Shown piece after piece: positions 8,087 through 47,747 of a DNA stretch of 64,000 nt (position 1 is the first letter of the stretch; each line of letters begins with the position of its first letter). Location: NCBI RefSeq assembly GCF_039904985.1, contig NZ_CP157005.1:1426001-1490000 (forward strand), in the 5' to 3' direction. Source of the stretch: Methylomonas sp. AM2-LC (lineage in GTDB: Bacteria > Pseudomonadota > Gammaproteobacteria > Methylococcales > Methylomonadaceae). The position numbers were made by a program, and so were the translations under genes. The notes under the pieces were generated by a model, which was given only the letters and a program-made list of their open reading frames with translations, made no database searches and was not told the DNA's origin.

Positions 8087-8747
8087 AAATCACTCCAAAG
8101 TGTTATTGAAACTAATTTTTTGTCCCACGACGAAGCACATCGAATCAGCGTATTTTTATTAAATGGTTAATGTGTAACTACTTACCCAGTTATTGATCTC
8201 TTTAGGTGGTTGGGGGTGGCTCGATAGAGCGTAACCCAATCTACGCATGGCACAACTCAGCCAAGAAATCCCATAGCCAAAAGCCAATTCGTCAGCTTTT
8301 TAACAGTTTTTGAAAAACGCGGAATGTAATTACAGTAATGTTTAATAAAATCAAAGCCGGAAGCTGTTTCGTTGCTCCATTTAAGGTTTTAACCGATTAG
8401 TAACAGCAAAAAATAAGCCAATCTTATTATTTGTGCATTGAGATAGATGCTATTTATTGGTAAGACTTTATTTATTAAGACTTAGTGGATTTATAATATT
8501 TGTAGGCTTCAGATGTAGCTTAAGTAAAATATTGCGCGATAGCTAAATGGGATTGTTCAAAAATCAGCAAGCCATGTGCACTTGCTGTTGTTGTGGATGC
8601 AATTGATTGTTGGTAGAAATTTTGTTTGCTGGTAATTTCTTGAACTGATGTTTACCATGCGAGATGTATTAAAATTGAGTGTGTTGATTTTGAGTTTATT
8701 CAACACGACCCCTTTTTTTCGGAACGAGAGTATTGTTAGAAAACAAT
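8087..8747. other. 660-bp gene-free stretch upstream of the DUF6152 cassette
   Basis: There is no open frame with coding character on either strand. The only signal I can support is the sigma-54-like site at 8405-8420, pointing toward the DUF6152 gene. The rest is AT-rich. If the promoter is used, the transcript has a leader of about 300 nt. Confidence 0.6.
8405..8420 (-). promoter_or_regulatory. Candidate sigma-54 promoter for the DUF6152 cassette
   Basis: The minus strand reads TGGCTTATTTTTTGCT. GG and GC are exactly 10 nt apart, and only the fifth base differs from TGGCAYRN4TTGCW, the same deviation as in the arylsulfotransferase promoter at 33750-33765. The T-rich stretch between the boxes is also typical. 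Transcription would start near 8394. Confidence 0.5.
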
Positions 8748-9287
8748 CTAAACGATTTTATATGCAACTTCATTAAGGATTCGACCTGACATACTTGTTA
8801 CTTTGCCAGTTCTAAATATTCTGCCGTTTAATTTTTCTGCAATTTTCCTGCTGGGTATATTATCTCTGTCGCAAGGATATACCATAAAACTGAAAATCAG
8901 ATTTTCTCTGGCCCAATTAGCCAGAATTTTTATGGCCTCTTGACCGAAACGATTACCATGAGCTTGTTTTTTTAGCCATATACCCAAGCTGGGTTCGTCT
9001 GGGGAAGGCTTTCCATGAAGCCCACAAACGCCCAAGAATTCATCCGATGTATTATCAAGAATTGCAAAAGTTAAATCAGTGTTCTCTTCCATCTTTTTAT
9101 TACTTGCTCGAATAAACTCGTAAATCTGATTAATATGAGTAGGTGTTGATGGAACCATAAACTGCGTTATTTCATCAGTAAACTCTTTAAAAATTATGTC
9201 CGCATATTGATCAGCAATAGGTATTAGTTTTACCCGTACACCATTTATCGTAACTGAGCTGAATCGAATGTGGGTACGGGTCTGCAC
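8748..9287 (-). CDS. GNAT-family N-acetyltransferase (RimJ/RimL-like)
   Basis: It has 179 residues of the Acetyltransf_3 type. FAILDNTSDEFLGVCGLHG and EPSLGIWLKKQAHGNRFGQE supply the beta4 strand and the acetyl-CoA pyrophosphate loop (here AHGNRFG instead of the usual RGxGxG/A). DRDNIPSRKIAEKLNGRIF is the C-terminal helix that packs on CoA. The N-terminus (VRVKLIPIADQYADIIFKEF) is the standard RimJ-like substrate-side start. The substrate may be a small amine or a protein N-terminus and cannot be told from the sequence. It stands alone, 176 bp from the next minus-strand gene. Confidence 0.8.
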   Translation of the reverse strand: MQTRTHIRFSSVTINGVRVKLIPIADQYADIIFKEFTDEITQFMVPSTPTHINQIYEFIRASNKKMEENTDLTFAILDNTSDEFLGVCGLHGKPSPDEPSLGIWLKKQAHGNRFGQEAIKILANWARENLIFSFMVYPCDRDNIPSRKIAEKLNGRIFRTGKVTSMSGRILNEVAYKIV

Positions 9288-9351
9288 GATGTTGGTTCCT
9301 ATTTTTTAATAAGTTTTTAATATATTTACAACTCGATAAGCAGGAATAGGT

Positions 9352-9420
9352 CGTAATAGGTGAAGCCGTATTGCGCAGGTGTCTTCGATCATTCTGCGCA
9401 ATACTTTTCGCTATTGACGC
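9352..9420. repeat. Long imperfect palindrome between the GFA and GNAT genes
   Basis: Perfect 11-bp arms, GTATTGCGCAG (9368-9378) and CTGCGCAATAC (9394-9404), enclose a 15-nt loop. The symmetry extends outward imperfectly (TCGTAATAG near 9352, CTATTGACG near 9411). A T run follows only on the plus strand, where no gene would need it, so it is not an obvious terminator for either neighbour. Confidence 0.5.
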
Positions 9421-9463
9421 CCTATGGGTAACCACTATTATGATTGCGGCTTATGGACTTATG

Positions 9464-10024: not shown

Positions 10025-11581
10025 TTAAGGTAAAAAATGGAATTGCAGCATATCGCTAAACGGATTTGTAAAGGTGTTTTCGCTTTTTCCCTGGTCCATA
10101 CCTGGAATGATCAAATAATCGGTCCATTTGATTTCACCGCCAATCTGATCGGAGTTAGGCACTTTTTTTAGATCCCAGCCACCACCCAGTGCGGTGACTA
10201 ACTGTACAGAAGCCGTTAAACGAGAGCCTTTCAGTTGTACTGCGGTTACCTGATTATTCAATGCATTGGTTTGTGCGGTCATAACATTGATATAATTGAC
10301 TGTTCCGGCTTTGTATTGATTAATAGTCAGCATTAACGCTTCGTTTGCAGCGGCAACCGCTCTATTCTGTACCTCGATTTCGTCGGCGAGGATGCGTAAA
10401 GCCACCAGATTGTCTTCCACTTGTTGAAATGCGGTTAACACTGTTTGCCTGTAATTGGCGACATTGGCTTCGTAATTGTCTATTGCCTGTTTATACTGGG
10501 CATTTTTTGCGCCACCATCAAACAATGTTATTGCTCCCGCAGCAGGAAATGACCAATAATTTTTAGCCAGCGAATACAACGTATTTAAATTTAAAAAACC
10601 ACTCTGCACACCATCGGTGGCACTCAGGTTCAGAGTCGGAAAATATGCGGCTTTCGCAACACCGATTAAGGCATTGGTGGCAGCCAGTTGGCGTTCCGCA
10701 ACGGCAATGTCGGGCCGTCTTTCCAATAGTTCGGAAGGTAATTCCACCGGAATAGCAGGAACTTGCACGTTTAATAGATCGTTAGACAGGCTTAATTCGG
10801 CGGGGGCTTTGCCTATCAGTACTGCAACCGCATGCTCAAGTTGAGCGCGTTGTATGCCTAGGTTGATGTTCTGAGCGCGAACGGCTTCCAATTGTGCTTC
10901 GGCCTGGGCTACGTCGCTTTTAGCGGCCACACCTGCACCATACCGGTTACGGGTAATATCCAGAGTTTTTGTATAAGCGGCAGTATTTTCATCTAACAAT
11001 CTCTTTTGTTCATCCAGTATTTTTAATTGAAAATAATCAGCGGCCAGACTGGCTTGTAGGGATAGTTGTAAGGCCTGCATAGTGGCTGCACTGGCTTGTG
11101 CAGATTCAGTATTGGCTTCAATTTGTCTCCGTACTCCACCCCATAAATCCGGTTGCCAGGTCATGGATATTGCATTACCAATGAGGTTTCTAACCCCGGC
11201 AGGAGCCACACTGGTACCACTGGCAGCGACAAAGCGATTAAACTGCCCAGTACCCGTGCCGACCGGAAATAAGGACGATTGTGACGATAATACCAAGTGT
11301 TCTGCTTGACGGAATTGCGCTTCAGCTTTTGCCAAGGATTGATTAGCTTTGGCTACTTGTTCTTCCAACTCATTTAGTTTGGGATCTGCAAAAATTTCCC
11401 ACCAGTTACCCAGTACCACATTATCGCGGGGCTGCGCTTGTTTCCAGCCTTTTGCTTCTTTAAAATCAGTTGGCGTGGTTAGCGGTGGACGGACATAATC
11501 CTGACCCATCATGCAAGCTGTTAGATTGGTGGCTATAACGGTATAAAGTAAAGTTTTGTTGGGACGAAATTTCATGCGCAC
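10025..11581 (-). CDS. RND efflux outer-membrane channel lipoprotein (OprM/NodT family)
   Basis: It has 518 residues. The N-terminal lipoprotein signal ends at NLTACMMGQDYVRPP, with lipobox TAC and the DYVRPP start typical of NodT-family channels. Two repeated outer-membrane efflux domains follow (~60-250 and ~270-460), with landmark WWEIFADPKLNEL, ANTESAQASAATMQ and ELLERRPDIAVAERQLAATN. The start may be GTG 11581 or ATG 11575; no ribosome-binding site decides. It is the last gene of the four-gene efflux operon, 11 bp after the second inner-membrane pump, and should form the trimeric exit duct. Residues after ~470 run beyond the usual end. Confidence 0.9.
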   Translation of the reverse strand: MRMKFRPNKTLLYTVIATNLTACMMGQDYVRPPLTTPTDFKEAKGWKQAQPRDNVVLGNWWEIFADPKLNELEEQVAKANQSLAKAEAQFRQAEHLVLSSQSSLFPVGTGTGQFNRFVAASGTSVAPAGVRNLIGNAISMTWQPDLWGGVRRQIEANTESAQASAATMQALQLSLQASLAADYFQLKILDEQKRLLDENTAAYTKTLDITRNRYGAGVAAKSDVAQAEAQLEAVRAQNINLGIQRAQLEHAVAVLIGKAPAELSLSNDLLNVQVPAIPVELPSELLERRPDIAVAERQLAATNALIGVAKAAYFPTLNLSATDGVQSGFLNLNTLYSLAKNYWSFPAAGAITLFDGGAKNAQYKQAIDNYEANVANYRQTVLTAFQQVEDNLVALRILADEIEVQNRAVAAANEALMLTINQYKAGTVNYINVMTAQTNALNNQVTAVQLKGSRLTASVQLVTALGGGWDLKKVPNSDQIGGEIKWTDYLIIPGMDQGKSENTFTNPFSDMLQFHFLP

Positions 11582-11592
11582 ATAGACGAATT

Positions 11593-14500
11593 TTAAGCTG
11601 ATGTATCTGCAGGGTGAACGGATGCAGAGTGGGTAAAACGGGTACGAAAACTTAAACGAAATCGATCCAGATATAAATAAACTACCGGAGTGGTGTATAG
11701 CGTAAGTAATTGACTAAAAACTAAACCACCGACTATTGAAATCCCTAGGGGTTGGCGTAATTCAGCACCATAGCCCGAGCCTAGCGCCAAGGGCAGGGCA
11801 CCAAACAGCGCGGTTAAAGTGGTCATCAATATGGGTCTAAAGCGCAGTATACAAGCCTTAAAAATGGCATCGCGAGAACTCAAACCTTCTGTGCGTTCAG
11901 CATGTAAAGCAAAATCGATCATCATAATGGCATTTTTTTTGACTATGCCGATCAGTAAAATTACACCAATTAAGGCTATTATGCTGAATTCTGTATCACA
12001 AGCCATTAAGGCCAATAGGGCGCCAACACCCGCTGAAGGTAGCGTTGAGAGTATGGTTAGTGGATGAATATAACTTTCATAGAGTATGCCCAGTACCAGA
12101 TAAATACTCACTAGTGCCGCCAGAATCAGCCAGGGTTGGTTTCGTAAGGAGTCTTTAAAAGCTTTCGCAGAGCCTTGAAAGCTACCTTTTAAACTGGTGG
12201 GTAAACCGATAGAAATCATCGATTTTTCAATAGCTTTTGTGGCATCAGATAATGATATGCCTTCTTTAAGATTAAAGGAAATAGTTGCTGCGGCAAATTG
12301 CCCTTGATGATTCACTGTTAATGGTGTGCTGGTGGGAGAAAAGTTGGCTATGCTCGCCAACGGTACCTGATGAGCGGGTATCTGAGCCCCTGATTTTGAG
12401 TTTGATGCTGGCACACTAATAAATATCTGTTTCAGCGCTTCTGGACTTTGCCAGTATTCCGGTGCCAATTCCATCACCACATGATATTGATTGAGGGGGT
12501 TATAGATAACAGAAACCTGTCTTTGCCCAAATGCATCATTTAAACTGGCATCTATCATGGCTTGCGTCACTCCGTAACGGGCGGCAGCATCGCGGTTTAC
12601 CACTAGGCCAATTTGTTGCCCATGATCCTGTTGATTGGTATTGACATCACTGAGTTCTGGTAATTTTGACATGGCCTCGACAACTTTAGGTGTCCAGGTA
12701 CGCAGTAAATCCAGATCATCGGATTGCAATGCGTAATCAAACATACTGGGTGATGGTCTTCCGCCAATACGTAACTCCTGTGCCGGAAATAAATGTATTC
12801 TTGCACCGGGAATACGTTTTAAACTGTCACGCAAACGTTCCATGACTTGTTCAATGGGTTCGCGTTCCTCATGAGGTTTCAATACGGTAAATAGGTCGGC
12901 ACTATTGGTATTTTGTTGGGCACCCGCAAATCCCACCACATTGCTTACGGCTGGGTCTTGTTTGATAATGGCGGCAAATTCGAACAATTTTTTCTGTAAT
13001 GCCCAAAATGAAACGCCTTGATCAGCTTGAATGCCGCCAATTAATCGGCCACCGTCTTGGGTGGGAAAAAATCCTTTTTCTATGTTGATGTATAAATAAA
13101 AATTTAGGCCGATGGTGCCAAACAATAGTAGCAACATAATGCGGCTATGCCTTAGCGCCCAGTTTAGTGACTGTTCATAAAATTTCTGTACGCGTTCAAT
13201 GGATCGACTAATACCATAAAAAAAACGACCAGGATTAGGATTTTCCTTACTTAACCAGCGTGCACAGAGCATGGGTGTGGTGGTCAAAGAAATGAGTAAT
13301 GATACCAGTACCGATGCTGACAGGGTAACGGCAAACTCCCTGAAAATACGCCCCACCACGCCACCCATCAGTAAAATCGGCAAGAACACAGCGACCAGAG
13401 AAACGCTCATGGCGAGTACGGTAAAACTGACTTCTTTGCTAGCCATCAGTGCTGCTTTGTAGGGTTTTATGCCATTTTCAATATGCCGTTTTGCATTTTC
13501 AACCACCACGATAGCATCATCAACCACAAAACCTGTTGCTATGGTTAGTGCCATTAAAGATAGATTGTTCAAGCTATAGTGCAGAAAATACATCACTAAA
13601 CAGGAACCAATTAGTGAAACCGGCACGGAAACGATGGGGATTAGGGTAGAGCGTAAATCCTGTAAAAACAGTAACACTACCAGCATGACCAATCCAATCG
13701 CAATAAATAAACTATGTTCAACTTCGCGAACTGATGCACGAATGGTCAACGAGCGATCTACCACCACAGATAGATCCACACTATTGGGTAGGCTGGCTTT
13801 TAATTCCGGTACGAGTGCCAATACTTGATCTACTGTTTCTATGACATTGGCAGCAGGTTGTTTTTTGAGTATGAGTAATACAGAGGGTTTACCATTTTTT
13901 AGCCCGGTATTGCGCAAATCTTCTACAGAATCTGTTACGTCTCCCAAGTCGGATATTCTGACTGGGGCATTGTTTTTGTAACTGACAATCAATGGCATAT
14001 AGTCTTTAGCCAGGCGTGCCTGATCATTAGCTTGTATTTGCCAGCGCTGTTCAGCATTCTCTATGACGCCTTTGGGGCGGTTAATATTGGTTTGGCTGAT
14101 AGTGTTACGAACATCCTCCAGTCCGATACCGTATTTGGTCAAAGCATTTGGATTGAGATCCAGGCGCACTGCGGGCAAGGCTGCACCGCCCACTTGTACC
14201 TGACTGATACCGGAAATTTGCGAAATTTTTTGTGCCAGAATTGTTGAGGCGAGATCATACATCTGACCACGATCAAATTTTTCAGAGGTGAGTGCCAGAA
14301 TCAAGATGGGTGAGTCAGCAGGATTATCACGTCTATAACTGGGGCGTGATGGTAAGCCTGTTGGTAACAAAGTGGCTGCAGCGTTAATAGCTGCCTGAAC
14401 ATCTCGGCCCGCACCATAAATATCACGCGCCAGATCAAATTGCATTGTGATACGTGTAGAGCCGAGTGAGCTGGTTGAAGTCATTTCATTAATGCCAGCA

Positions 14501-14721
14501 ATACGGCCAAGCGCTCGCTCCAGTGGTGTAGCTACGGTTGCTGCCATAGTTTCGGCACTTGCGCCAGGCAAGTTGGATTGTACGGTAATGGTTGGGAAGT
14601 CAACCTGTGGCAAAGATGACACTGGCAGATTTAGAAATGCCAGGGCACCGGCCAAGGTAATGGCAAGCGTTAGCAGGCTGGTGGCTACGGGCCGATTAAT
14701 AAATAGTGCGGAGATGTTCAT
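11593..14721 (-). CDS. mdtC: RND multidrug efflux permease, MdtC-like
   Basis: It has 1042 residues, the full length of an HAE1 RND pump. It begins [20 protein letters not shown] (TM1) and carries the TM4 proton-relay pair in [20 protein letters not shown]. Two large periplasmic loops are present, and the C-terminal half repeats the fold ([39 protein letters not shown]). Its ATG overlaps the stop of the upstream mdtB-like gene (TGATG), so the two pumps are translationally coupled and probably form a mixed B2C trimer, as shown for E. coli MdtBC. The B/C assignment follows gene order and resemblance. The substrate is unknown (bile salt- or novobiocin-like compounds in known systems). Confidence 0.85.
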   Translation of the reverse strand: MNISALFINRPVATSLLTLAITLAGALAFLNLPVSSLPQVDFPTITVQSNLPGASAETMAATVATPLERALGRIAGINEMTSTSSLGSTRITMQFDLARDIYGAGRDVQAAINAAATLLPTGLPSRPSYRRDNPADSPILILALTSEKFDRGQMYDLASTILAQKISQISGISQVQVGGAALPAVRLDLNPNALTKYGIGLEDVRNTISQTNINRPKGVIENAEQRWQIQANDQARLAKDYMPLIVSYKNNAPVRISDLGDVTDSVEDLRNTGLKNGKPSVLLILKKQPAANVIETVDQVLALVPELKASLPNSVDLSVVVDRSLTIRASVREVEHSLFIAIGLVMLVVLLFLQDLRSTLIPIVSVPVSLIGSCLVMYFLHYSLNNLSLMALTIATGFVVDDAIVVVENAKRHIENGIKPYKAALMASKEVSFTVLAMSVSLVAVFLPILLMGGVVGRIFREFAVTLSASVLVSLLISLTTTPMLCARWLSKENPNPGRFFYGISRSIERVQKFYEQSLNWALRHSRIMLLLLFGTIGLNFYLYINIEKGFFPTQDGGRLIGGIQADQGVSFWALQKKLFEFAAIIKQDPAVSNVVGFAGAQQNTNSADLFTVLKPHEEREPIEQVMERLRDSLKRIPGARIHLFPAQELRIGGRPSPSMFDYALQSDDLDLLRTWTPKVVEAMSKLPELSDVNTNQQDHGQQIGLVVNRDAAARYGVTQAMIDASLNDAFGQRQVSVIYNPLNQYHVVMELAPEYWQSPEALKQIFISVPASNSKSGAQIPAHQVPLASIANFSPTSTPLTVNHQGQFAAATISFNLKEGISLSDATKAIEKSMISIGLPTSLKGSFQGSAKAFKDSLRNQPWLILAALVSIYLVLGILYESYIHPLTILSTLPSAGVGALLALMACDTEFSIIALIGVILLIGIVKKNAIMMIDFALHAERTEGLSSRDAIFKACILRFRPILMTTLTALFGALPLALGSGYGAELRQPLGISIVGGLVFSQLLTLYTTPVVYLYLDRFRLSFRTRFTHSASVHPADTSA

Positions 14722-17700
14722 CAGGGATTCAAATCCGTATTTGTTTGTTCATCAATGGGTTTTAGCTTTAACCAACCAGCAACATTTTTGGCTAATTTAT
14801 CCATCCACAAATAGATGACTGGCGTGGTGTATAAAGTTAATAATTGACTTAACAGTAAACCACCTACCATGGATAAGCCCAACGGGTGACGTAATTCTGA
14901 ACCTACTCCAGTACCAATCATTAAGGGTAATGCACCTAGTAGTGCTGCTAAAGTAGTCATTAAAATTGGGCGAAATCGTAATACGCAAGCCTGATAAATG
15001 GCCTCAGCGGGCAACATAAACTGTTTACGCTCAGCTTCCAGGGCAAAATCGATCATCATAATGGCATTTTTCTTAACGATGCCAATCAGCAAAATGATAC
15101 CGATAATACCAATGATATCTAGGTCGGTGCCTGACAGCATTAGTGCTACCAACGCGCCGACACCGGCGGACGGTAAGGTAGATAAAATAGTAACAGGATG
15201 TATATAACTTTCATATAAGACGCCCAATACAATGTAAACCGTAACAATAGCGGCCAAAATTAACCATAACGTGTTAGTTAATGAGGCTTTAAAGGCTAGT
15301 GCAGCACCTTGAAAACTGGTATGCACACTTAACGGCAAACCAATTTCTTGTTTGCCTCGTTCGATGGTTTGCACCGCATCACCTAAAGAACTGCCCTTAG
15401 CCAGATTAAACGAGAGTGTGGAAACCGGAAATTGATTCAAGTGATTGATTGAAAGGGGTGTGGGTTGAATAGATAATTCCGCAATGGCAGACAAGGGTAC
15501 TTGGGTGCCGTTGGTAGATGGAATACGTAAATCATTGAGCATATTCGGCGTTATTTGTTCACTTGGATCCACCTCCAGGACTACCCGATACTGATTGGAT
15601 TGAGTGAAAATGGTAGATACCAAACGCTGTCCATAGGCGTCATAGAGTGCGTTATCGATCGCAGAAGTACTGACTCCCAGTCGACTGGCGGTACTTCGAT
15701 CAATTTTGACGTAAACTTGTTGACCCTGATCCTGCACGTCACTTGCAACATCACTAAATGCGGGTTGCTCTTGTACCCATTCCACTAGTTTATGCGTCCA
15801 GCTATTCAACTCTTCAAGATTTGCAGATTCCAGGGTAAATTGATATTGGGTACGACTGACACGGTTTTCCATTGTCAAGTCCTGAACAGGTTGTAGAAAT
15901 AATTTAAAATCTGATTGTTTGCTTAGATTTGTTTTTAGACGGTCTATCACTTCACTAGCCGAAATTAAGCGTTCAGCTTTTGGTTTAAGATTAATTAAAA
16001 ATCGACCACTGTTGGGGGTACTATTAATGCCATCAACACCAATAATCGACGATAAACTTTCTACAGCCGGATCATTCAGAATAATGGCAGCCATTTGTTG
16101 TTGGTAATTTGCCATTGCCGTAAATGATACGTCTTGTGGCGCTTCAGAAATGCCTTGAATAATTCCGGTATCCTGTATCGGAAAAAATCCTTTCGGAATG
16201 ACAATATATAAGACTACAGTCAATAAAACGGTGGTAAAAAACACACACATAGTTAGTACTTGTCTGTTTAGCACCCATTGCAATGACCGTCCATAACCTG
16301 CAATTAGTGTTTCGAACCAATTGTTTTTGCTCTGTTGTTCGTGTTGTTGCTCTGGACGCAACAGCTTTGCACACATCATGGGTGTTAATGTTAGTGAGAC
16401 TAGGGCAGAAATTAAAATAGCAACTGCGAGGGTAATGGCAAATTCTCTAAATAGCCGTCCGACAATATCGCCCATAAATAACAATGGAATTAATACGGCA
16501 ACTAAAGAAAAGGTTAGAGAAATAATAGTAAAGCCAATTTGTTCAGAACCTTTTAATGCTGCTTTTAGAGGTGATTCCCCTCGTTCTATATAACGGGAAA
16601 TATTTTCAATCACCACAATGGCATCGTCCACGACAAACCCAGTCGCAATGGTTAATGCCATTAAAGTCAGATTGTTAATACTAAAGTCGGCTATGTACAT
16701 TACGGCAAAAGTGCCTACCAAAGATACTGGCACTGCAATACCCGGAATAATGGTGGCCGGAATATTGCGCAGAAATAAAAAAATCACCATAACGACCAGC
16801 GCGACTGCTAGCAGTAATTCGAATTGTACATCGTGTACCGAAGCACGAATGGTGATGGTACGATCAGTCAGTGGTAAAACTTCTATGCTGACTGGCAGAG
16901 ATGCTTGCAATTCTGGTAACAGTGCTTTAATACGATCAACTACTTCTATGACATTTGCACCGGGTTGACGTTGAATGTTAACGATGATGGATGCCTTATC
17001 ATTTGTCCATGCCGAGAGTCGAGTGTTTTCCGCACCATCAACCACTTTTGCTACTTCGGTTAAACGTACCGGTCCTCCGTTACGATAAGCAATAACCAAA
17101 TCGCGATATTCAACGGCAGAATGTAATTGATCGTTACTATCAATAATGGCTGAACGCAATGGGCCATTAAACATGCCTTTCGGTTGATTGACATTGGCGG
17201 CGGCAATAGCCGAGCGCAAATCTTCCAAACTGATGCCATAGGCAGAAAGTGCTTTGTGATTAGCTTGAATTCTGACCGCAGGACGTTGGCCTCCGCTCAA
17301 ACTAACTAAACCTACACCCGGCAACTGTGCAATTTTTTGTGCGAGTCGAGTGTCAATCAGGTCTTCTACTTTGTATAAGGGTAATGAATTAGAGCTAACT
17401 GCGAGTGTCATGATTGGTGTGTCAGCCGGATTTACTTTGCTATAGATAGGCGCTTGCGGTAAATCCGTAGGCAGAAAACTGGCTGCTGCATTAATGGCAG
17501 CCTGTACTGTTTGTTCGGCAATATCCAGTTCAAGATGCAAATTAAATTGTAAAGTGATGACGGATGCACCACTGGAATTGCTGGAAGACATTTGTGTAAG
17601 TCCAGGCATCTGACCAAATTGACGTTCCAAAGGGGCTGTAATGACTGAGGTCATGACTTCAGGACTTGCTCCTGGATATAATGTAACCACCTGTATGGTT

Positions 17701-17858
17701 GGATAATCAACTTGAGGTAATGCAGATACCGGTAGTAACCGGTAAGCCAGAATACCTACCAATAGTAAGGCTACCATTAAAAGCGAAGTTGCGACGGGTC
17801 GCAGGATAAAAATCCGTGAAGGATTGAAGCCTGATTGCTTAGAATTTGAATTTGGCAT
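14721..17858 (-). CDS. mdtB: RND multidrug efflux permease, MdtB-like
   Basis: It has 1045 residues of the RND HAE1 family, with N-terminal [20 protein letters not shown] and the TM4 acidic pair in [40 protein letters not shown] and [20 protein letters not shown] lie in the second half. It is clearly paralogous to the 11593-14721 pump. It lies 3 bp after the adaptor gene and overlaps the next permease by one base, giving the order adaptor-B-C-channel. That is the mdtABC pattern, but with its own outer-membrane gene instead of a shared TolC. No regulator gene is adjacent. Confidence 0.85.
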
Positions 17859-17861
17859 GCT

Positions 17862-26877: not shown

Positions 26878-26885
26878 TAGATTTG

Positions 26886-33712: not shown

Positions 33713-33749
33713 GAATAAGTCGTGTTTGTGGTAATAATTGCGAATATTA

Positions 33750-33765
33750 AGCAATTAGTAAGCCA
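33750..33765 (-). promoter_or_regulatory. Sigma-54 promoter of the arylsulfotransferase-cupin operon
   Basis: The minus strand reads TGGCTTACTAATTGCT. The -12 box TTGCT is exact, and the -24 box differs at the fifth base only. GG-GC spacing is 10 nt. Predicted start near 33740, 28 nt before the ATG at 33712. Confidence 0.65.
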
Positions 33766-34291: not shown

Positions 34292-34307
34292 TGGCATGGG
34301 CATTGCT
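34292..34307 (+). promoter_or_regulatory. Sigma-54 promoter of the TonB-dependent receptor
   Basis: TGGCATGGGCATTGCT is an exact match to TGGCAYRN4TTGCW with the required 10 nt between GG and GC. Predicted start is near 34318, leaving a leader of about 77 nt before the GTG start at 34395. Confidence 0.75.
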
Positions 34308-37535: not shown

Positions 37536-37821
37536 GCCTGTCGTTTTAATGGAATGTTATTTTCACAAAATTCATTTATTAATTTGATTAAGTCGAGTTT
37601 ATAAATAGGACAGTCTTCGTTAGTGAATGGATATATTTAGCTGTTTATAAATGCTAATAAATGAGCAGTGATTGTTGAGGGTGTGTTGAATTATCACCAG
37701 ATTATTTTATAAATAAGGTGATAAATTTACATGGCAATATAAATACAGGAGATTATAAAAAAATACAAATAATATCAATTGGATATATTGTTTTAATTTT
37801 TATTTATCTTTTATAAAATAA

Positions 37822-37837
37822 TGGCATGTTGATTGCT
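37822..37837 (+). promoter_or_regulatory. Sigma-54 promoter of the rhodanese-DUF1549-DUF1501 operon
   Basis: TGGCATGTTGATTGCT matches TGGCAYRN4TTGCW exactly, with 10 nt between GG and GC. Predicted start near 37848, about 64 nt before the rhodanese ATG. Confidence 0.75.
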
Positions 37838-37911: not shown

Positions 37912-38424
37912 ATGAAAAAAATAATACTGCTAGCCTTATCGCTGGCTCTGTTAGTAACACAGTCTGTTCAAGCAGCTGAAGCCGATGCCACTAAAAAACC
38001 GGATGCAGCTGCTGAACAAAAATGGACTTATAAAACGCCAAAACTGGACCGTGCCAAACTGGAAGCTTTGCTCGCCAAGCCTTCACAGCTTTTGATTATA
38101 GATGTGCGTCGTCCAGATGAAATTAGCAAGATCGGTGGCTTTCCTGTCTATTTGAGTATTCAAAGTAAAGATATTGAAAATTCCCTGAAATATATACCTA
38201 AGGATAGAAAAATCGTCACTGTCTCAAATCACGCGCATCGTGCGGGTATTGCTGCCGATTTGTTGGCGAGTAAAGGTTTTAAGGTGGTTGGTGCGGTGGG
38301 CTCGCAGAATTATGAAGAAGAAGGCGGTGTAATCAATAAGATTGAAATTCCACCACCAAAAGCTGCGGCTTCAAGCACTGATACGCCAAAAGCTGAGGTG
38401 TCAACCACACAACCAAAAATCTAA
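37912..38424 (+). CDS. Exported rhodanese-like domain protein lacking the catalytic Cys
   Basis: It has 170 residues with a signal peptide ending VQAAEAD (~1-24). The rhodanese fold is seen in LLIIDVRRPDEISKIGGFPV and KIVTVSNHAHRAGIAADLLA, followed by GFKVVGAVGSQNYEEEGG. At the active-site loop, where active rhodaneses have C-x5-R, this reads SNHAHR, so there is no Cys and the domain cannot transfer sulfur by the usual persulfide chemistry. It may be a binding or structural module. It is first in a plus-strand operon driven by an exact sigma-54 promoter, followed by DUF1549/DUF1553 and DUF1501 genes. The C-terminal tail (~145-170) is Pro/Ala/Thr-rich. Confidence 0.8.
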   Translation: MKKIILLALSLALLVTQSVQAAEADATKKPDAAAEQKWTYKTPKLDRAKLEALLAKPSQLLIIDVRRPDEISKIGGFPVYLSIQSKDIENSLKYIPKDRKIVTVSNHAHRAGIAADLLASKGFKVVGAVGSQNYEEEGGVINKIEIPPPKAAASSTDTPKAEVSTTQPKI

Positions 38425-38502
38425 AAAAATTGCCCGATTTTGTCTGCTGGGATGCCTTTTAGGTTAAATCAGGGCGCTATAAATCATGTTTTGGAGAGTT
38501 CA

Positions 38503-40833: not shown

Positions 40834-40869
40834 TGCTGCTAACTTATTAAATAATTATAGGAATATAAA

Positions 40870-42315
40870 ATGAAAAATATATCTCGTAGAGATTTTATGA
40901 TTAAAACCGGTTTGGCAGCAGGTGCATACGGTTTGAGTGGATTATTACCGGGTGGTGGGGTTATCCAGGGAGCCTTTGCGGCTGATTTACTGGATCCATT
41001 GGCCCCAAAACCGACGCACTTTCCAGCCAAAGTTAAATCTGTGATCTGGCTGCATATGGATGGTGCGCCTAGTACTATCGATTTGTACGATTATAAACCT
41101 GAGTTGATAAAACTGGCTGGCAAAGAAGTACCTGCTTCTTTTATGAAAGGTATTAAAACCAGTACTCAGGGTGGTGTAGGTAAACTGTGGGTATCAAACA
41201 GAACCTGGAAACAATACGGAGAAAGCGGCGCTTGGTTTTCGGATTTATTGCCTAACCTTGCACAGCATGCGGATAAATTAAATTTTATTAAATCCAGCTT
41301 CACCGTGGGAGCAACCCATGATATTTCAATTTTGAAATTAAATACGGGCGGTTTAAATCCGGGTCGTCCTTCATTGGGTGCGTGGATTCAATATGCTTTG
41401 GGTTCGGCAAATCCAGATTTACCGGCTTATGTGGTTTTGTATAACGGTAAAAGAGAACCAACGGGTGGTTCTGTTAATTGGAGCTCAGGCTTTTTACCTG
41501 CGGTGTATCAAGGTACGGCTTTCCGTCCTGGCGATACACCTATTTTGTATCTGGATCGTCCTGAAACTATTTCGGCTGGACAACAAAATGAAAATCTGTC
41601 TTTGCTGAAACAGCTTAACGGTATAAAGGACGCTCAATATCCAGAAGATACTGAATTACAAGCCAGAGTGCGTGCTTATGAGTTAGCGCAACGCATGCAG
41701 GTTACAGCGCCGGAAGCGGTTGATTTAAGTAAGGAAACGCAAGCGACCAAAGATGCTTATGGATTAAATGATGATGCTACCAAAGGTTACGGTACCAGTT
41801 TATTAAGGGCAAGACGCCTAGTGGAACGTGGAGTACGTTTTATTCAAGTAGTATCGGGTCCTACCGAAGTGGGTGGCGATAGCAGAAACTGGGATGCGCA
41901 TAACAGTCTGGAAGAGAATCACGGTAAACATGCTAAAGCGGTTGATAAACCCATTGCCGCGTTACTGGCCGATTTAAAAGAGCGCGGCTTGCTGGATTCT
42001 ACCCTGGTGGTTTGGACCTCTGAATTTGCACGTACCTCATATGGTGAATCTGGGACAGGTCGTGATCACAATGCCTGGGGTTACACACAATGGCTGGCAG
42101 GTGGCGGTACCAATGCAGGTACGACCTATGGCGCAACTGATGATATTGGTTTACAGATTGCCGATAAGAGCAAAGGGGTTGATACCTATGATTTACATGC
42201 CACAGTGCTAAATCTATTAGGTTTAGATCATTTAAAAGTTATTTACCCTTATCAAGGACGCTCTGAACGCCCAACGGTTGTTTATGGAAAAGTTATTAAA
42301 GAATTAATTGCTTAG
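40870..42315 (+). CDS. DUF1501 protein, Tat-exported, alkaline-phosphatase/sulfatase-like fold
   Basis: It has 481 residues. The N-terminal Tat signal ISRRDFMIKTGLAAGAYGLS (~4-23) precedes an AFAAD cleavage region. The core has VIWLHMDGAPSTIDLYDYKP (metal-binding Asp start), VGATHDISILKLNTGGL, RRLVERGVRFIQVVSG and STLVVWTSEFARTSYGESG, with GRDHNAWGYTQWLAGGG near the end. This is DUF1501, related to the alkaline phosphatase superfamily that includes sulfatases. It is nearly always next to DUF1549/DUF1553 in Planctomycetes, as here. A hydrolase acting on sulfate or phosphate esters is possible (inference). Such a pair in a gammaproteobacterium is likely horizontally acquired. Confidence 0.88.
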   Translation: MKNISRRDFMIKTGLAAGAYGLSGLLPGGGVIQGAFAADLLDPLAPKPTHFPAKVKSVIWLHMDGAPSTIDLYDYKPELIKLAGKEVPASFMKGIKTSTQGGVGKLWVSNRTWKQYGESGAWFSDLLPNLAQHADKLNFIKSSFTVGATHDISILKLNTGGLNPGRPSLGAWIQYALGSANPDLPAYVVLYNGKREPTGGSVNWSSGFLPAVYQGTAFRPGDTPILYLDRPETISAGQQNENLSLLKQLNGIKDAQYPEDTELQARVRAYELAQRMQVTAPEAVDLSKETQATKDAYGLNDDATKGYGTSLLRARRLVERGVRFIQVVSGPTEVGGDSRNWDAHNSLEENHGKHAKAVDKPIAALLADLKERGLLDSTLVVWTSEFARTSYGESGTGRDHNAWGYTQWLAGGGTNAGTTYGATDDIGLQIADKSKGVDTYDLHATVLNLLGLDHLKVIYPYQGRSERPTVVYGKVIKELIA

Positions 42316-42571: not shown

Positions 42572-42958
42572 ATGCGAATGACGCAAAATGCCATTGGAAT
42601 TCTTTTTATGCTACTTAGCAATATTGCGGGGGCAGATGCAGAATTTGATTTTGAAGAAATGATGAAAGATGTTGAAACACAAACACAAAGTGTGCAAAAC
42701 AGTATTGCCGCAAAAGATGTAGATACAGCTACAGCGGATGCCAAGAAGTTGCAGGATGAATTTAAGTTAGTAGAAAACTATTTCACAAAACGTGGTAATG
42801 CTTCAGATGCTGTGGGGATTGCCAAAGAATATCAGGAAAAGGCTGCCACATTACAGAAGTCGTTAGCCGTGAGTGACTATGATACTGCTAATCATGTGGC
42901 GCAAGAATTTTCTCAACAGTGTCGTGGTGCTTGTCACGATAGTTATAAACCCCTATAA
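42572..42958 (+). CDS. Small exported cytochrome with CX3CH haem motif
   Basis: It has 128 residues with a short signal peptide (LFMLLSNIAGADA, ~10-22). A helical body follows, then the C-terminal haem motif C117-R-G-A-C121-H, i.e. three residues between the Cys instead of two. The layout otherwise resembles the C-terminal CxxCHDxY of class II cytochromes (CRGACHDSY here). CX3CH haem sites are known but uncommon, and some need dedicated lyases. The gap before it (42316-42571) has no clear promoter. A peroxiredoxin and a dihaem cytochrome follow on the same strand. Confidence 0.75.
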   Translation: MRMTQNAIGILFMLLSNIAGADAEFDFEEMMKDVETQTQSVQNSIAAKDVDTATADAKKLQDEFKLVENYFTKRGNASDAVGIAKEYQEKAATLQKSLAVSDYDTANHVAQEFSQQCRGACHDSYKPL

Positions 42959-42963
42959 ATAAA

Positions 42964-43557
42964 ATGAACATGAAAACAACTTTATTGAAAATTCTGACCC
43001 TAAGCATAATGACATTGCCAGGTTGGGCTGCTTTACCCGAGGGTCATCCAGCTCCCAGCTTTAAGGCACAAGCGTCATTGGCTGGAAAAGCATTCAATTA
43101 TTCATTGCAAGATGCATTAAAAAAAGGTCCGGTGGTCGTGTATTTTTACCCATCGGCCTATACCGGGGGTTGTAATATTCAGGCGCATAGTTTTGCGGTT
43201 AATCATGAGAAGTTTGCCAGTGCTGGTGCCAGTATTGTGGGTGTCTCACTGGATAGCATTGAAAGATTGAATGATTTTTCGGCTGATCCTAATTATTGTG
43301 CCAGTAAGTTTCCAGTTGCTTCGGATGCTGATGGCGCAATTGCCAAATCTTATGATTTATCGATTCGCGATGCTGCACCGGGTAAAACTGATAGCCGAGG
43401 CGTTGAAATTACTCATGGCTTTGCGGAGCGTACCACTTTTGTAATAACACCCGACGGTAAAATTACTGCCACCCTGGGTGGGCTTAAACCGGAAGAAAAT
43501 GTGGCTAAAGCATTGGAAACTGTACAGAAGTTGGGTTTTACAGCACAAACAAACTAA
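42964..43557 (+). CDS. Exported peroxiredoxin (AhpC/TSA, PrxQ-like)
   Basis: It has 197 residues with a signal peptide of about 23 (LTLSIMTLPGWAA). The peroxidatic loop is VVVYFYPSAYTGGC (Cys 70), and a second Cys at DPNYCASKF could resolve it. GASIVGVSLDSIERLNDFSA and AERTTFVITPDGKITATLGG are the PrxQ/BCP-like strands. It reduces peroxides in the periplasm using a thiol or cytochrome donor. It starts 5 bp after the CX3CH cytochrome gene and is followed by a dihaem cytochrome, which may be its electron source (inference). Confidence 0.88.
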   Translation: MNMKTTLLKILTLSIMTLPGWAALPEGHPAPSFKAQASLAGKAFNYSLQDALKKGPVVVYFYPSAYTGGCNIQAHSFAVNHEKFASAGASIVGVSLDSIERLNDFSADPNYCASKFPVASDADGAIAKSYDLSIRDAAPGKTDSRGVEITHGFAERTTFVITPDGKITATLGGLKPEENVAKALETVQKLGFTAQTN

Positions 43558-43611
43558 TAGAAATAATGGGTTCATATTATTCGGGTTGCTGCTTAATAGG
43601 GTAGCTGGAAT

Positions 43612-44271
43612 GTGTATTTATTAGTGTTATATCAATCATTGCCTAAGCGACGGATGTTTCACATTGTCTTGTGGATTTACACATTATTGCTGGTCAGTAA
43701 TAGCTTGTATGCAGATCAAGGCAATGGCGATGCAGTTAGAGGCAAGTTGAAGGCAATAGAAGAAAGATGTGTGGAATGTCATGGGGAAGATGGTAATAGC
43801 GTTGATGTCAAAACTCCCAATCATGCTGGGCAGATTGCAGGATACCTGATTAAGCAGTTGTTAAACTTTCAATCTGGTGAGCGTAAGCACGAAACCATGA
43901 CCATTATGGCTGCTGACCTAACCGCCAATGATATAGATGATATTGCCGCTTATTTTTCGGGACAGAAAGTTATGCAAGGTGAGGGTAGTATAGATAATCC
44001 GTTGGCTGGCAATTTAATGTTAAACGGCGATCAGCTCCGCGACCTTCCTGCTTGTGGTAGTTGCCATGGTGAAAAGGGTAAAGGTGCTGTAAAGAACAAT
44101 GTTGTTTACCCTGTGATAGGTGGGCAGCGAAAGGTGTATTTATTTCAGCAGTTACAAAGTTGGCGTATGGGCGAACGTAAAAACAGCCCTGAGGGTGTTA
44201 TGAATAAAATAGCCAAATCATTGCAGGATGAGGAAATTGAAGCGTTAGCTGATTATTTGTCCAGGCTTTAA
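43612..44271 (+). CDS. Dihaem cytochrome c4-like protein
   Basis: It has 219 residues from GTG 43612; ATG 43654 (MFHIVLWIYTLLLV) is an alternative with a better signal peptide but no better ribosome-binding site. Two repeated cytochrome c domains carry CVECHGEDG (first half) and CGSCHGEKG (second half), each with a distal Met region (TMTIMAADL and NSPEGVMNKI). This is the c4 pattern: periplasmic, dihaem, usually passing electrons to a terminal oxidase. Here it may serve the neighbouring peroxiredoxin or the PepSY reductase-like protein (inference). Confidence 0.85.
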   Translation: MYLLVLYQSLPKRRMFHIVLWIYTLLLVSNSLYADQGNGDAVRGKLKAIEERCVECHGEDGNSVDVKTPNHAGQIAGYLIKQLLNFQSGERKHETMTIMAADLTANDIDDIAAYFSGQKVMQGEGSIDNPLAGNLMLNGDQLRDLPACGSCHGEKGKGAVKNNVVYPVIGGQRKVYLFQQLQSWRMGERKNSPEGVMNKIAKSLQDEEIEALADYLSRL

Positions 44272-44439
44272 TGTTTCCGAATGGCAATGTATCTCAATTG
44301 GGGTTAGGTGGAAATGATAATGAGCTGGCTGTTTGGCTTTGTAAACAAGAACGGCTTAACTTGATGCCATAGATTGCTAATCGATGCGGTTAGTTTCACC
44401 TGATTACGATTAGATTAAGAATACGATACAGGAGCAAGC

Positions 44440-46065
44440 ATGAAGTTTTTAAATTGGTTGTTATACGAAGTGCATCGTTGGTTAGGTATAGCGGTGGGAA
44501 TATTTATGTTTGTCTGGTTTTTAACGGGTCTGGTGATTATGTATTCCACACCTACCACCCAAACCCCGACTCAACAATTAGCCCATGCGGAAATACTAGC
44601 AGTCGAGCCGGGTTGGTTAAGCTTGGGCGATGTATGGCAGCATAGCGAAGTGCAGCGTAAGTTGGCTAGCAACCAACGCGCAGTTAAAAAAGAGTCTAAT
44701 AGCAGCCAAAAGCAGAAACAGGAAGAGCCTGCTATTACTGATGCACGTTTAGTAAGAATTAATGGTGAACCGTTGTGGTTAGTGGATGATACTCGTAATC
44801 AGCGTTTTGCCTTGTCGGCTAACGATGGTGCATTACGTGAGTTTTCCGAAGCACAATCCTTACAAATTGCCCAGAGCTGGTATAAAGCCATCAATGAGCA
44901 CGATGTGCCTAAAGTACGTTATCTGGAGCTGGTTGACAGCCCGATTATTTTACGTAATCAGGAAAGTTTACGTCCTTTTCATCATATTGCGGTAGGTGAA
45001 GCGGGTGATGAATTATTAATTTCATCACGCACTGGTGAAGTTTTACATGCTTCAACACGCTTAGAAAGAGCCTTTTTCTGGGCGGGTAACTGGATACATT
45101 TGTTTAAGCCATTGGAAGCTTTAGGCTATGGCAGTATTCGTCACGATGTGCAGTTATGGTCTAGTTTGATAGCAACCATAGCGACGCTGACCGGTTTGAT
45201 TATCGGCTGGTTACGCTGGCGTCCCGGCTTTAATGGCAAACGCACTTATTCTGAGGGGCGTACCCAACCCTACAGAGAATTCTGGTTTAAATGGCATTTT
45301 TGGACTGGATTATTAGGCGGTACGCTAGCCTTGTTTTGGGCGCTTAGCGGCTTTATTGATACCAATCCTGGCAAACTATTTTCTCAAGGAGACTATACAC
45401 GCGAGGAACTAAACCATTATCTGGATAATGCATTGCCCGAGGTAATGTCCAACTCGAAACCTATAGAGCTGATTGGTGAAAACAAAGTTCAAGATTTGGT
45501 GCAGTTAAACTGGCGTCGTTTAGGTAATGAAGCTGTTTTGTTGGCCTATGGACGTGATGGAGTGCGCATACCGCAGATAGTAGGTAGCAGTTTGCCACAA
45601 TTCAGTTCTGCTGCTTTGGTGTCTGGGGTTAATCGCGTGCAAGCAATCACCGAGATGGAAACGACTACGCTATTAAATGAGTACGATAGTTATTACTATC
45701 CTAGACATCATCAAACCAAATTGGATAAACCATTGCCAGTGTTATTGGTGAAATTATCTGACGAAGCAGCTACTCGTTTTTATCTGGATCCACAGGATGG
45801 TCGGTTGCTCAGTAAATTTGATAAAAGTCGTCGGATATTACGTTGGCTTTATTCCGCCTTACATCACTGGGATTTTGGTTGGTTATATTATCGGCCGTTG
45901 TGGGATATTTGGATGATTATCTGGGTTAGTTGTGGTTTGGTATTAGGCGCTAGTTCTCTGGTGATCGGTTGGCGGCGTTTAAAGAAAACCCTTGCGCCCA
46001 AAAAGCATAAAGCTAGGCGTCCTGCATTTATTAGTGAGTTGGTTACTGAGAATGTAACAGATTAA
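44440..46065 (+). CDS. PepSY-domain membrane protein, ferric reductase-like
   Basis: It has 541 residues. Four long helices are at ~12-34 (LGIAVGIFMFVWFLTGLVIM), ~215-250, ~285-310 and ~485-505, with PepSY regions in the two periplasmic loops. YEVHRWLGIAVGIFMFVWF and FKWHFWTGLLGGTLALFWAL carry the His that ligate haem in PepSY-TM/flavocytochrome-like iron reductases, and LRWLYSALHHWDFGWLYYRP is the last such block. AGGAG stands 5 nt before the ATG. Members reduce ferric chelates or other periplasmic acceptors. A role in reducing imported ligand or supporting the periplasmic peroxiredoxin is possible (inference). Confidence 0.8.
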   Translation: MKFLNWLLYEVHRWLGIAVGIFMFVWFLTGLVIMYSTPTTQTPTQQLAHAEILAVEPGWLSLGDVWQHSEVQRKLASNQRAVKKESNSSQKQKQEEPAITDARLVRINGEPLWLVDDTRNQRFALSANDGALREFSEAQSLQIAQSWYKAINEHDVPKVRYLELVDSPIILRNQESLRPFHHIAVGEAGDELLISSRTGEVLHASTRLERAFFWAGNWIHLFKPLEALGYGSIRHDVQLWSSLIATIATLTGLIIGWLRWRPGFNGKRTYSEGRTQPYREFWFKWHFWTGLLGGTLALFWALSGFIDTNPGKLFSQGDYTREELNHYLDNALPEVMSNSKPIELIGENKVQDLVQLNWRRLGNEAVLLAYGRDGVRIPQIVGSSLPQFSSAALVSGVNRVQAITEMETTTLLNEYDSYYYPRHHQTKLDKPLPVLLVKLSDEAATRFYLDPQDGRLLSKFDKSRRILRWLYSALHHWDFGWLYYRPLWDIWMIIWVSCGLVLGASSLVIGWRRLKKTLAPKKHKARRPAFISELVTENVTD

Positions 46066-46311
46066 TGGCGATAGTATTTTTAAGACTTAGGTTGTGTTAG
46101 CCGCAAGCCTTAACCCAATCTGTCAGCTTGGCAATAGTTTACAGCTTTGATTGTTCGGTTACTCGCTATTGTGATAACTCAACCTACGTTAGTTATATGT
46201 TTTCGTAATGTATTGATTTAAATAAGCTATAACCTTAAATGAGAGTCATTCTGGTGAGTAGTTTTCGAATGTTTAGTATTGGCAAAAATTGAATTTATTG
46301 AGGAGTAAAAC

Positions 46312-46518
46312 ATGGGTTTAAGTGTTCCGCATCTGTTAGTTGTTTTGGCTATAGTCGTTTTAGTGTTTGGTACTCGACGTTTAAAAAATGTGGGGGCTGA
46401 TTTAGGGGATGCCATCAAGGGATTTAGAAAGGCTGTTAAGGAAGGCGAAGCACTTAATGAAGAAACTGATTTATCAAAATCGGTATACGTTTTTGATAAA
46501 GAGAAACATTCTGTTTAA
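46312..46518 (+). CDS. tatA: TatA/TatE twin-arginine translocase subunit
   Basis: It has 68 residues: a single N-terminal helix ([20 protein letters not shown]), then the amphipathic helix [19 protein letters not shown], the TatA hallmark with [16 protein letters not shown] lies 6 nt before the ATG. TatB and TatC are not adjacent, so this is a separated or extra TatA. It sits among genes for Tat-signal proteins (DUF1501, DUF882, DLH), which it may serve. Confidence 0.88.
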
Positions 46519-46673
46519 TTTTGGCGTCGATACTGGTCAGTAACGGTGTCGACAAAAATGTTGTATAGGTGATTGTTATTGTTTTTTACCTTTAATGAAG
46601 CATCGGTAAAAGGTAGCAGTATTTTAATTTTATGGCAGCTCATTATCGCTAGCCAAGCCAAAAGAGGTTTACT

Positions 46674-47747
46674 ATGACATTATTAGCCTTTGATGAAAAT
46701 CAGACTCGTTCGCTGTCTCACTCAGTGCGCGCAACTGCGCTGGTGTTTGAAGATCCAGTATCGAGACGCCTGCTTGATCAAATTGAACGGATTGCGCCGA
46801 GTGATGCAACTGTATTAATTATTGGTGAAACCGGAACCGGTAAAGAATTGGTAGCCAGGCATATCCACGCCTTAAGTAAGCGCAATCAACAAACATTTGG
46901 AGCCTTAAATTGCGCTGCGCTGAGTGAAGGATTGATTGAAAGTGAACTGTTTGGACATGAAAAAGGCTCATTTACTGGTGCAATATCAGCAAAAGACGGT
47001 TGGTTCGAGACGGCTAATAAAGGCAGTTTGTTTCTGGATGAAGTGGGTGATTTGCCTTTAGGCTTGCAGGCCAAATTACTGCGCGTTTTACAGGAACGTG
47101 AAGTGGTTAAGGTGGGGTCAAGAACAGCTGTGCCAGTTGACGTAAGAATTATTGCTGCCACTAATATCAATCTTGAAGAAGCTGTTGCAGCTTCGCATTT
47201 CCGTGCTGATTTGTATTATCGCTTTAATGTTGCCACTATTTATTTGGCACCCTTGCGTGAGCGTCCAGGTGATATTTTGCCTTTAACGGAACATTTCCTT
47301 AAATTATACGGTGATCGCCTAGGCTATAGTGAAGTCAAACTATCCGCAGCAACTGAGTTGGCTTTGTTGAATTATGATTGGCCCGGTAATATTCGCGAAC
47401 TTGAAAATGCTGTACATCGTGCGTTGCTAGTTTGCCCTGGTAATCGTCTGCGTCCAGAAGATTTTAAGTTATCAGACCACAGAGTTCCAGATGAAACGCC
47501 GCCTATCTCCACCCGTTCTTTAGAAAGTTCTCTGTTAAAGCTACTCGAACAAGCGCCGCCGAATCTATTTGAGATCATTGAGGAAACTGTCATTCGTACT
47601 GCTTTTGAGTTTTGCGACGAAAACCAGGTGCAAACAGCGCGTTTACTGGATATTAGTCGTAACGTGCTACGCCATAAGCTGGCGGCGTATGAAATGCTCG
47701 CCAATTCGCATAAGAAGCTGATTGATAATTCTGCCTTGTTGGCATAG
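46674..47747 (+). CDS. Sigma-54-dependent transcriptional activator, SfnR/PspF-like (no receiver domain)
   Basis: It has 357 residues. After a short N-terminus (~25, no receiver, GAF or PAS) comes the AAA+ core: Walker A GETGTGKE (51-58), sigma-54 contact loop GSFTGA (98-103; canonical GAFTGA with Ala to Ser), Walker B FLDEVGDLP, sensor I AATNINLEE and the arginine-finger region LREREP-like. The C-terminal Fis HTH is QTARLLDISRNVLRHKLAAY (~318-338). AGAGG lies 6 nt before the ATG. Lack of a regulatory domain and the sequence (SDATVLIIGETGTGKELVAR, FETANKGSLFLDEVGDLPLG) resemble SfnR, which controls organosulfur genes in pseudomonads. It is the obvious candidate for driving the seven sigma-54 promoters in this window. 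Confidence 0.9.
   Translation: MTLLAFDENQTRSLSHSVRATALVFEDPVSRRLLDQIERIAPSDATVLIIGETGTGKELVARHIHALSKRNQQTFGALNCAALSEGLIESELFGHEKGSFTGAISAKDGWFETANKGSLFLDEVGDLPLGLQAKLLRVLQEREVVKVGSRTAVPVDVRIIAATNINLEEAVAASHFRADLYYRFNVATIYLAPLRERPGDILPLTEHFLKLYGDRLGYSEVKLSAATELALLNYDWPGNIRELENAVHRALLVCPGNRLRPEDFKLSDHRVPDETPPISTRSLESSLLKLLEQAPPNLFEIIEETVIRTAFEFCDENQVQTARLLDISRNVLRHKLAAYEMLANSHKKLIDNSALLA

Follow-up and report, generated by a model that had tools for sequence, protein, structure and literature searches.

A 64,000-nucleotide stretch of the Methylomonas sp. AM2-LC genome (contig NZ_CP157005.1, here C1, positions 1426001-1490000; genome 5.39 Mb, three contigs), called the window below, raises the question whether genes for TonB-dependent uptake, periplasmic enzymes and several families of unknown function are tied together by one sigma-54 regulon. 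An original prediction made from this stretch had placed seven transcription units on both strands under -24/-12 promoters, had named a nearby SfnR-like activator and had suggested sulfated or organosulfur ligands. Sigma-54 promoters need an enhancer-bound AAA+ activator. Our analysis points to a conserved Methylomonas RpoN regulon under a sensor-less activator of the SfnR clade, which would control TonB uptake together with periplasmic enzymes, and we consider this reading likely.

Promoter sites in the window

Searching both strands for TGGCAYRN4TTGCW with at most one mismatch recovered all seven sites at the coordinates first given (Table 1), those at 34292 and 37822 as exact matches and the other five with one mismatch, each directed into the unit to which it had been assigned. 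The sites have the -24 GG and -12 GC elements of sigma-54 promoters at the fixed spacing and near the consensus. Two of them (29263 and 33750) extend into the initial codons of the open reading frame (ORF) when this is taken at maximal length, and the true starts of these genes therefore lie further in.

Altogether the window holds 11 sites on both strands, where dinucleotide shuffles expect 4.3 and none of 100 shuffles reaches 11. The earlier estimate of about two chance sites per window was thus too low, and the excess over chance is real. The original prediction had also called for a genome-wide scan; the pattern was run over the whole genome, and matrices were run on the window and on an 800-kb sample of the same genome. 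The pattern occurs 322 times in the genome (3.8 per 64 kb) compared with 87 times for the reversed pattern, exact matches number 13 versus one, and the sample yields 2.6 sites per 64 kb. The Poisson probability of 11 sites in the window is 0.002 at the genome rate or 8e-5 at the sample rate, values that are weak alone because the window was not randomly chosen. As the one-mismatch pattern is loose, counting is insufficient for the claim, and conservation and a shared enhancer decide. The four remaining sites of the window lie at 60630, 61041, 62742 and 63491, and an enhancer accompanies 62742 only.

Conservation in the genus

For six units, the loci of relatives in 37 genomes of the genus (the copy in the window excluded) were searched on the coding strand between 400 bp before the ORF and 110 bp into it, with 200 permuted patterns as control. 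A site is present in 13 of 14 loci of the arylsulfotransferase-like (ASST) gene and in 13 of 14 orthologues of the gene for the metallo-beta-lactamase (MBL)-fold lipoprotein, the best permutation reaching five loci in both cases. It is kept in 18 of 19 loci of the rhodanese-DUF1549 operon and, with at most one mismatch, in 14 of 19 tonB orthologues; a tonB paralogue used as control has none (0/10). The ASST set includes three more distant copies (58% identical), two of them with a site, and the DUF1549 set includes second and third copies from two genomes; from the DUF1549 set (20 loci) and the sulfatase set (12 loci) a single locus was removed, the gene or sufficient upstream DNA being missing. 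The TonB-dependent receptor (TBDR) was assessed through the ASST-adjacent loci of relatives, where its site appears; the spacer between ASST and TBDR is too diverged among relatives for its DNA alignment to be read as a whole. Departures from the consensus are often common to relatives as well: ASST promoters have TGGC[T/C], and most tonB promoters a -12 element like CGTGC or CATGC. Among 13 DUF6152 orthologues only three fit the strict pattern (at most one mismatch), a count that two of the 200 permutations reach.

A shared palindromic enhancer

In the promoters of relatives a common palindrome, cTGnTGnt-nn-anCAnCAg, stands upstream of the site, in most cases at a distance of 60-200 bp. In a first motif search (expectation-maximisation on 260 bp upstream of sites, with and without a symmetry constraint) A-tracts had the top likelihood, with the palindrome next, and were set aside as composition; after retraining with symmetry the palindrome ranked first and an AT-rich motif second. 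The retrained matrix was built from 52 promoters of relatives, with all sequence of the window's genome excluded, and scores the seven sites in order of position at 12.3, 15.9, 10.9, 14.8, 1.8, 10.3 and 14.0. At the six sites scoring at least 10 the palindrome lies 106-183 bp upstream, and such a score is reached at two of 32 sigma-54-like sites in the 800-kb sample (Fisher 5.7e-5); scores of at least 12 occur at four of the seven sites and at none of the 32. Because orthologues of the window promoters were used in training, this is a test of conservation, not of full independence. The 800-kb sample, 40 evenly spaced stretches of 20 kb, replaced a first background that had been drawn at random from the regulon loci themselves and held real palindromes.

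Joint hits of a site (position weight matrix (PWM) score at least 9) and a palindrome (at least 12) number seven in the window against 0.32 expected (four in 800 kb): 8405, 24989, 31510, 37822, 62742 and the two doubtful ones at 53837 and 62981. Promoters outside the training set match too. All three sigma-54 sites of the sfn locus described below have an upstream palindrome scoring 18-19, two of them sharing one of its two distinct palindromes. A second energiser lies 56 kb beyond the window at C1:1546028, where DUF2341-ExbB, ExbD and a TonB-like gene, followed by a porin, stand behind an exact site whose palindrome scores 19.4; in relative G002 a similar ExbB-ExbD unit with site and palindrome lies near the second activator copy. 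Of the genome's 13 exact sites, three (37822, C1:1546028 and C1:3482294) have the palindrome within 300 bp upstream, and a fourth, before a WecG-type gene, has it about 460 bp upstream; the exact sites before nifH, nifE, iscA-like and nirB-like genes have none scoring at least 12.5 in 300 bp upstream.

For DUF6152, all 13 relatives have a palindrome within 400 bp upstream (scores 12.6-18.8) and a GG-N10-GC site with one to three mismatches between palindrome and gene. Since relaxed sites easily arise by chance, the membership of this unit is carried by the palindrome. The intergenic palindrome at 34100, an upstream activating sequence whose distance is about 180 bp to the TBDR site and about 340 bp to that of ASST, may serve both divergent units. 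In relative G018, two pairs of site and palindrome (L039, 10089 and 10432) have no ORF of at least 100 aa within 500 bp downstream on the same strand, and possibly serve small genes or RNAs.

The candidate activator and its paralogues

The protein encoded at 46674 has the architecture of SfnR, an AAA+ sigma-54 domain from residue 24 and a Fis-type helix-turn-helix without an N-terminal sensor domain. The presence of an SfnR-like activator near the units is borne out by a paralogue of 56-58% identity at C1:3483644, which adjoins sfnG, ssuD and sfnB (over NCBIfam cut-offs) in a dimethylsulfone/sulfonate locus with the same palindrome. This likeness rests on architecture and on the paralogue's locus, not on the sequence of Pseudomonas SfnR, and the linkage to sfn/msu/ssu genes is seen for the paralogue, not for the window gene. 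A second paralogue, 85% identical, lies at C1:3683941 beside eutBC; the eutBC genes (ethanolamine ammonia-lyase; L035, 11310-13522) are divergent from it, with two strong palindromes between (13531-13580; C1:3683531 region). The activator query has 15 matches in this genome. GSFTGA in place of GAFTGA was considered as the mark of a dead activator and dropped, being present in 90 of 154 proteins fetched.

An orthologue of the activator (at least 78% identical) occurs in 23 of the 37 genomes, and the genomes with DUF1549 (18), exbB (20 at 79% or more), ASST (13), MBL (15) and DUF6152 (14) all fall within those 23. In relatives the activator adjoins regulon genes, often with site and palindrome before the activator itself: the site lies 266-313 bp upstream of the ORF in 13 of 16 rows compared, with the palindrome above it. 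A palindrome at 46975-46992 of the window (15.8, first matrix) lies inside the activator's own coding sequence.

Extent of the regulon

That the units form one sigma-54 regulon, as first proposed, is supported by genus-wide conservation and by the shared enhancer trained without this genome. The number of exactly seven did not survive: conservation gives the sulfatase no support (0/11), and the units at 51957, 62742 and C1:1546028 had been missed. The regulon looks as if it also takes in the 51957 unit and the ExbB-ExbD-TonB unit at C1:1546028, and the 62742 unit is probably a member; the ASST unit combines a conserved site with a weak enhancer. Joint hits in relatives stand also before a second receptor, an RND efflux operon, the activator and the counterparts of the 42572 and 52032 genes, and 11 of 39 relatives' loci scanned have none. 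In the window, neither the 42572 unit, whose counterpart has both elements in relatives L050 and L066, nor the RND genes (10025-19163) show a pair of site and enhancer.

Table 1. Units, candidate promoters and palindromic enhancers in the window (positions from its first nucleotide).
Feature	Coordinates	Strand	Remarks
DUF6152 unit	7664-8086, with 6815-7624 and 5767-6783	-	PF19649; in 14/37 genus genomes, all with activator
DUF6152 -24/-12 site	8405-8420	-	one mismatch; PWM 16.7
DUF6152 enhancer	8553-8570		score 12.3; 141 bp upstream of site
tonB-exbB-exbD	22867-24879	-	then SMP30 21808-22782, DLH 20599-21492, cytochrome b561 19873-20583
tonB -24/-12 site	24989-25004	-	one mismatch
tonB enhancer	25156-25173		score 15.9; 160 bp upstream; second copy 25198-25215
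Sulfatase maturase anSME	25492-26766	-	TIGR03942 over cut-off
Ser-type arylsulfatase (S-S-P-T-R)	26886-29279	-	PF00884; best solved matches are arylsulfatases; weakest member
Sulfatase -24/-12 site	29263-29278	-	one mismatch; PWM 11.4; palindrome 10.9 at 29417-29434
MBL-fold lipoprotein (HAHFDH)	29996-31498	-	PF00753; in 15/37 genus genomes
MBL -24/-12 site	31510-31525	-	one mismatch
MBL enhancer	31623-31640		score 14.8; 106 bp upstream
ASST-like gene 32282-33754 and cupin 31778-32269	31778-33754	-	PF14269/PF05935 over cut-off; cupin just below PF12973 cut-off
ASST -24/-12 site	33750-33765	-	one mismatch; TGGC[T/C] departure common in relatives
ASST/TBDR intergenic enhancer	34100-34117		score 10.3
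TBDR -24/-12 site	34292-34307	+	exact; like sites before ASST-adjacent receptors in relatives
TBDR	34395-37472	+	PF07715, PF00593
Rhodanese-operon enhancer	37683-37700		score 14.0; 130 bp upstream
Rhodanese-operon -24/-12 site	37822-37837	+	exact
Rhodanese-like, PSCyt2/PSD1 with CxxCH, DUF1501	37912-42315	+	Pfam matches
Small protein, AhpC-like, c-type cytochrome, PepSY_TM protein	42572-46065	+	no site and enhancer pair here
TatA-like gene, stand-alone	46312-46518	+	between PepSY_TM gene and activator
Candidate activator	46674-47747	+	PF00158, PF25601, PF02954
52032-unit enhancer	51889-51906		score 11.5; same arrangement (enhancer at -59) in one relative, L294
52032-52724 unit, -24/-12-like site	51957-51972	+	outside strict pattern
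-24/-12-like site before ribA/RibD-like/dehydrogenase/pterin synthase operon	62742-62757	-	operon 62657 down to 59873
62742-site enhancer	62811-62828		score 15.7; 62 bp upstream

The gene order tonB-exbB-exbD-DLH-cytochrome b561 recurs in relatives G002 and G005. The sulfatase has the S-x-P-x-R motif of Ser-type formylglycine sulfatases and a radical-SAM maturase beside it. By its Pfam matches the ASST-like product belongs to the arylsulfotransferase sequence family, with its best relatives mostly from methanotrophs. The haem motif of the PSCyt2/PSD1 protein reads CARCH in 24 of 24 rows (some strains twice). The rhodanese-like protein (37912-38424) that heads this strongly conserved operon has the loop SNHA[GH]RAG without a catalytic Cys in 22 of 22 rows (some strains twice), and the window's copy has no Cys anywhere, which does not fit a sulfurtransferase; it is probably a binding or structural domain. 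DUF1501 starts with an apparent Tat signal (SRRDF), and because a TatA-like gene lies nearby its export is possibly served locally. The product of 52032-52724 (230 aa) has no Pfam or NCBIfam match. The operon before which the 62742 site stands encodes GTP cyclohydrolase II, a RibD C-terminal domain, a zinc dehydrogenase and 6-pyruvoyl-tetrahydropterin synthase; the sfn locus likewise holds a ribBA gene, and the operon may possibly provide cofactors under the same activator family.

Proposed mechanism and ligand

We envisage that the SfnR-clade activator, having neither receiver nor sensor domain, would bind the palindrome upstream of the -24/-12 promoters, the binder being either the 46674 protein or its 85% identical paralogue elsewhere in the genome, and would switch on the TonB-ExbB-ExbD energiser, outer-membrane receptors, periplasmic hydrolases and haem/redox proteins. 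These periplasmic enzymes and haem/redox proteins would process the imported compound, presumably an organic ligand that may be sulfated or metal-binding. Activity is probably limited by the amount of activator, because the protein has no sensor and its own gene carries promoter and palindrome in many relatives, an arrangement from which positive feedback would follow.

The conserved core comprises TonB-ExbB-ExbD, receptors, SMP30, DLH, cytochrome b561, PSCyt2/PSD1, the c-type cytochrome and PepSY_TM. The ASST-adjacent receptor of named relatives is only 37-40% identical to that of the window and the promoter is kept, which suggests changing ligands under fixed control. For the ligand, two readings are considered.

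One of them, which we hold plausible while stopping short of calling it probable, is the import of a metal-binding compound (a siderophore or similar), from which the haem/redox proteins would free the metal, with a tie to redox state through RegB/RegA. The receptor resembles siderophore receptors (TIGR01783, below cut-off), and among solved structures it matches receptors of the siderophore, colicin and pesticin types; this similarity, however, is generic and restricted to the plug end. In Methylomonas sp. DH-1, the main text of a 2026 study (PMC13274454) describes the TonB receptor AYM39_03125 and the tonB operon AYM39_03230-03210 as rising on methanol, falling to 3-23% when regA is deleted and showing no appreciable RegA binding at their promoters, and leaves the intermediary open. 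Such RegA dependence without appreciable binding is in line with this reading. The DH-1 tag spacing (16 between) agrees with the gene order from receptor to tonB operon in relative G002 (16 or 17 ORFs), but the correspondence rests on tag spacing and gene order, not on DH-1 sequence. G002 was considered as DH-1 itself and rejected, its glgA lying 2.3 Mb from tonB compared with 108 tags in DH-1. If the DH-1 receptor and tonB genes are counterparts, an SfnR-type activator would be a natural RegA intermediary.

The other reading, in which sulfate starvation induces the regulon and sulfur is won from sulfate esters or organosulfur compounds, seems doubtful to us. It draws on the activator paralogue in the sfnG-ssuD-sfnB locus with the same palindrome, on the Ser-type arylsulfatase with its maturase and the ASST-like gene in the cluster, and on a sulfatase of relative G019 (L207) with site and palindrome about 720 bp upstream. 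The original claim of a regulon for sulfated or organosulfur ligands was nevertheless not borne out: the rhodanese-like protein lacks the catalytic Cys, the sulfatase site is conserved in none of 11 relatives' genes, a close sulfatase (70% or more) occurs in two of 37 genomes and ASST in 13, compared with 20 for exbB and 18 for DUF1549, and the core is one of TonB transport and haem/redox proteins. Nitrate mineral salts (NMS) medium, moreover, is sulfate-rich. It is in NMS medium that the apparent DH-1 counterparts rise on methanol, as the main text of that study has it (PMC13274454).

Weighing a single regulon

Several observations weigh against a single regulon under this activator. None of the 11 relatives' sulfatase genes has a site within 400 bp; as these copies are just 37-45% identical, this leaves membership unproven and no more, and the only close relative (70%, L201) ends before the promoter, while the G019 pair lies outside the 400-bp zone. 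Conservation counts overstate the evidence because related genomes are not independent. The ASST site of the window has an own-side enhancer score of 1.8, and only five of 23 ASST promoters reach 12 with the first matrix. Among the 23 activator genomes, five are without DUF1549 (G004, G009, G010, G019 and G022) and three without this exbB, so that the activator may have other work. Upstream of the window activator no promoter like that of its relatives was found, and the activator tree did not tell which of the two, the window copy or the 85% paralogue, corresponds to the regulator found in relatives. In another member of the Methylococcales (L064) activator and ASST occur together without a joint hit at the scan thresholds. 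Of 369 genomes in the class, four have sfnG, the present one among them; of the other three loci one (L282) has neither element, and at two (L284 and L285) a site is present but the 300 bp upstream of it hold no palindrome; the palindrome is therefore not established as general for SfnR. Lastly, the regulon is predicted here from sequence.

An alternative would be real sigma-54 promoters divided among several regulons under different activators, given the weak or absent palindrome at the ASST and sulfatase sites and the many sigma-54 activators of the genome; we regard this as quite unlikely, as the same palindrome (at least 10) stands at six of the seven sites and at many promoters of relatives and is absent at nif- and nir-type sites. 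Chance matches to a consensus loose enough to occur 322 times in the genome are a negligible explanation, since conservation beats the permuted patterns and joint hits exceed expectation as given above.

Comparison with known systems

In Pseudomonas, SfnR is the sigma-54 activator for dimethylsulfone use and is expressed under CysB and sulfate starvation. The putative regulon resembles that of SfnR in the architecture of the activator (SfnR's as generally described), in its sigma-54 promoters, and in the paralogue of this genome, whose neighbours are sfnG, ssuD and sfnB and whose locus has the same palindrome. Its targets differ: TonB transport and periplasmic enzymes take the place of flavin monooxygenases under the sulfur-starvation control familiar from SfnR. 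With the nif-type promoters of the same genome, whose activator is NifA, it shares exact -24/-12 sites (nifH, nifE), but those promoters lack this palindrome in 300 bp upstream.

Control of TonB receptors is usually attributed to Fur, extracytoplasmic function (ECF) sigma factors or two-component systems, and it would be unusual for an entire uptake system to depend on sigma-54 and a single enhancer code. We found no description of such a regulon in the titles and opening lines of open-licence papers. It would link conserved genes of unknown function, namely DUF1549/1553, DUF1501, DUF6152 and the 230-aa 52032 protein. Tentatively, we suggest that an SfnR-family activator moved from sulfone scavenging to a TonB uptake regulon with fast-diverging receptors and fixed promoter, enhancer, energiser and redox enzymes, and that it forms the RegB/RegA link on methanol. 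The likeness to the RegB/RegA system of DH-1 lies in a co-regulated TonB receptor and five-tag tonB operon, 17 tags apart, and the terms sigma-54 and RpoN do not occur in the main text of that study (PMC13274454), for whose missing step the activator is a concrete candidate.

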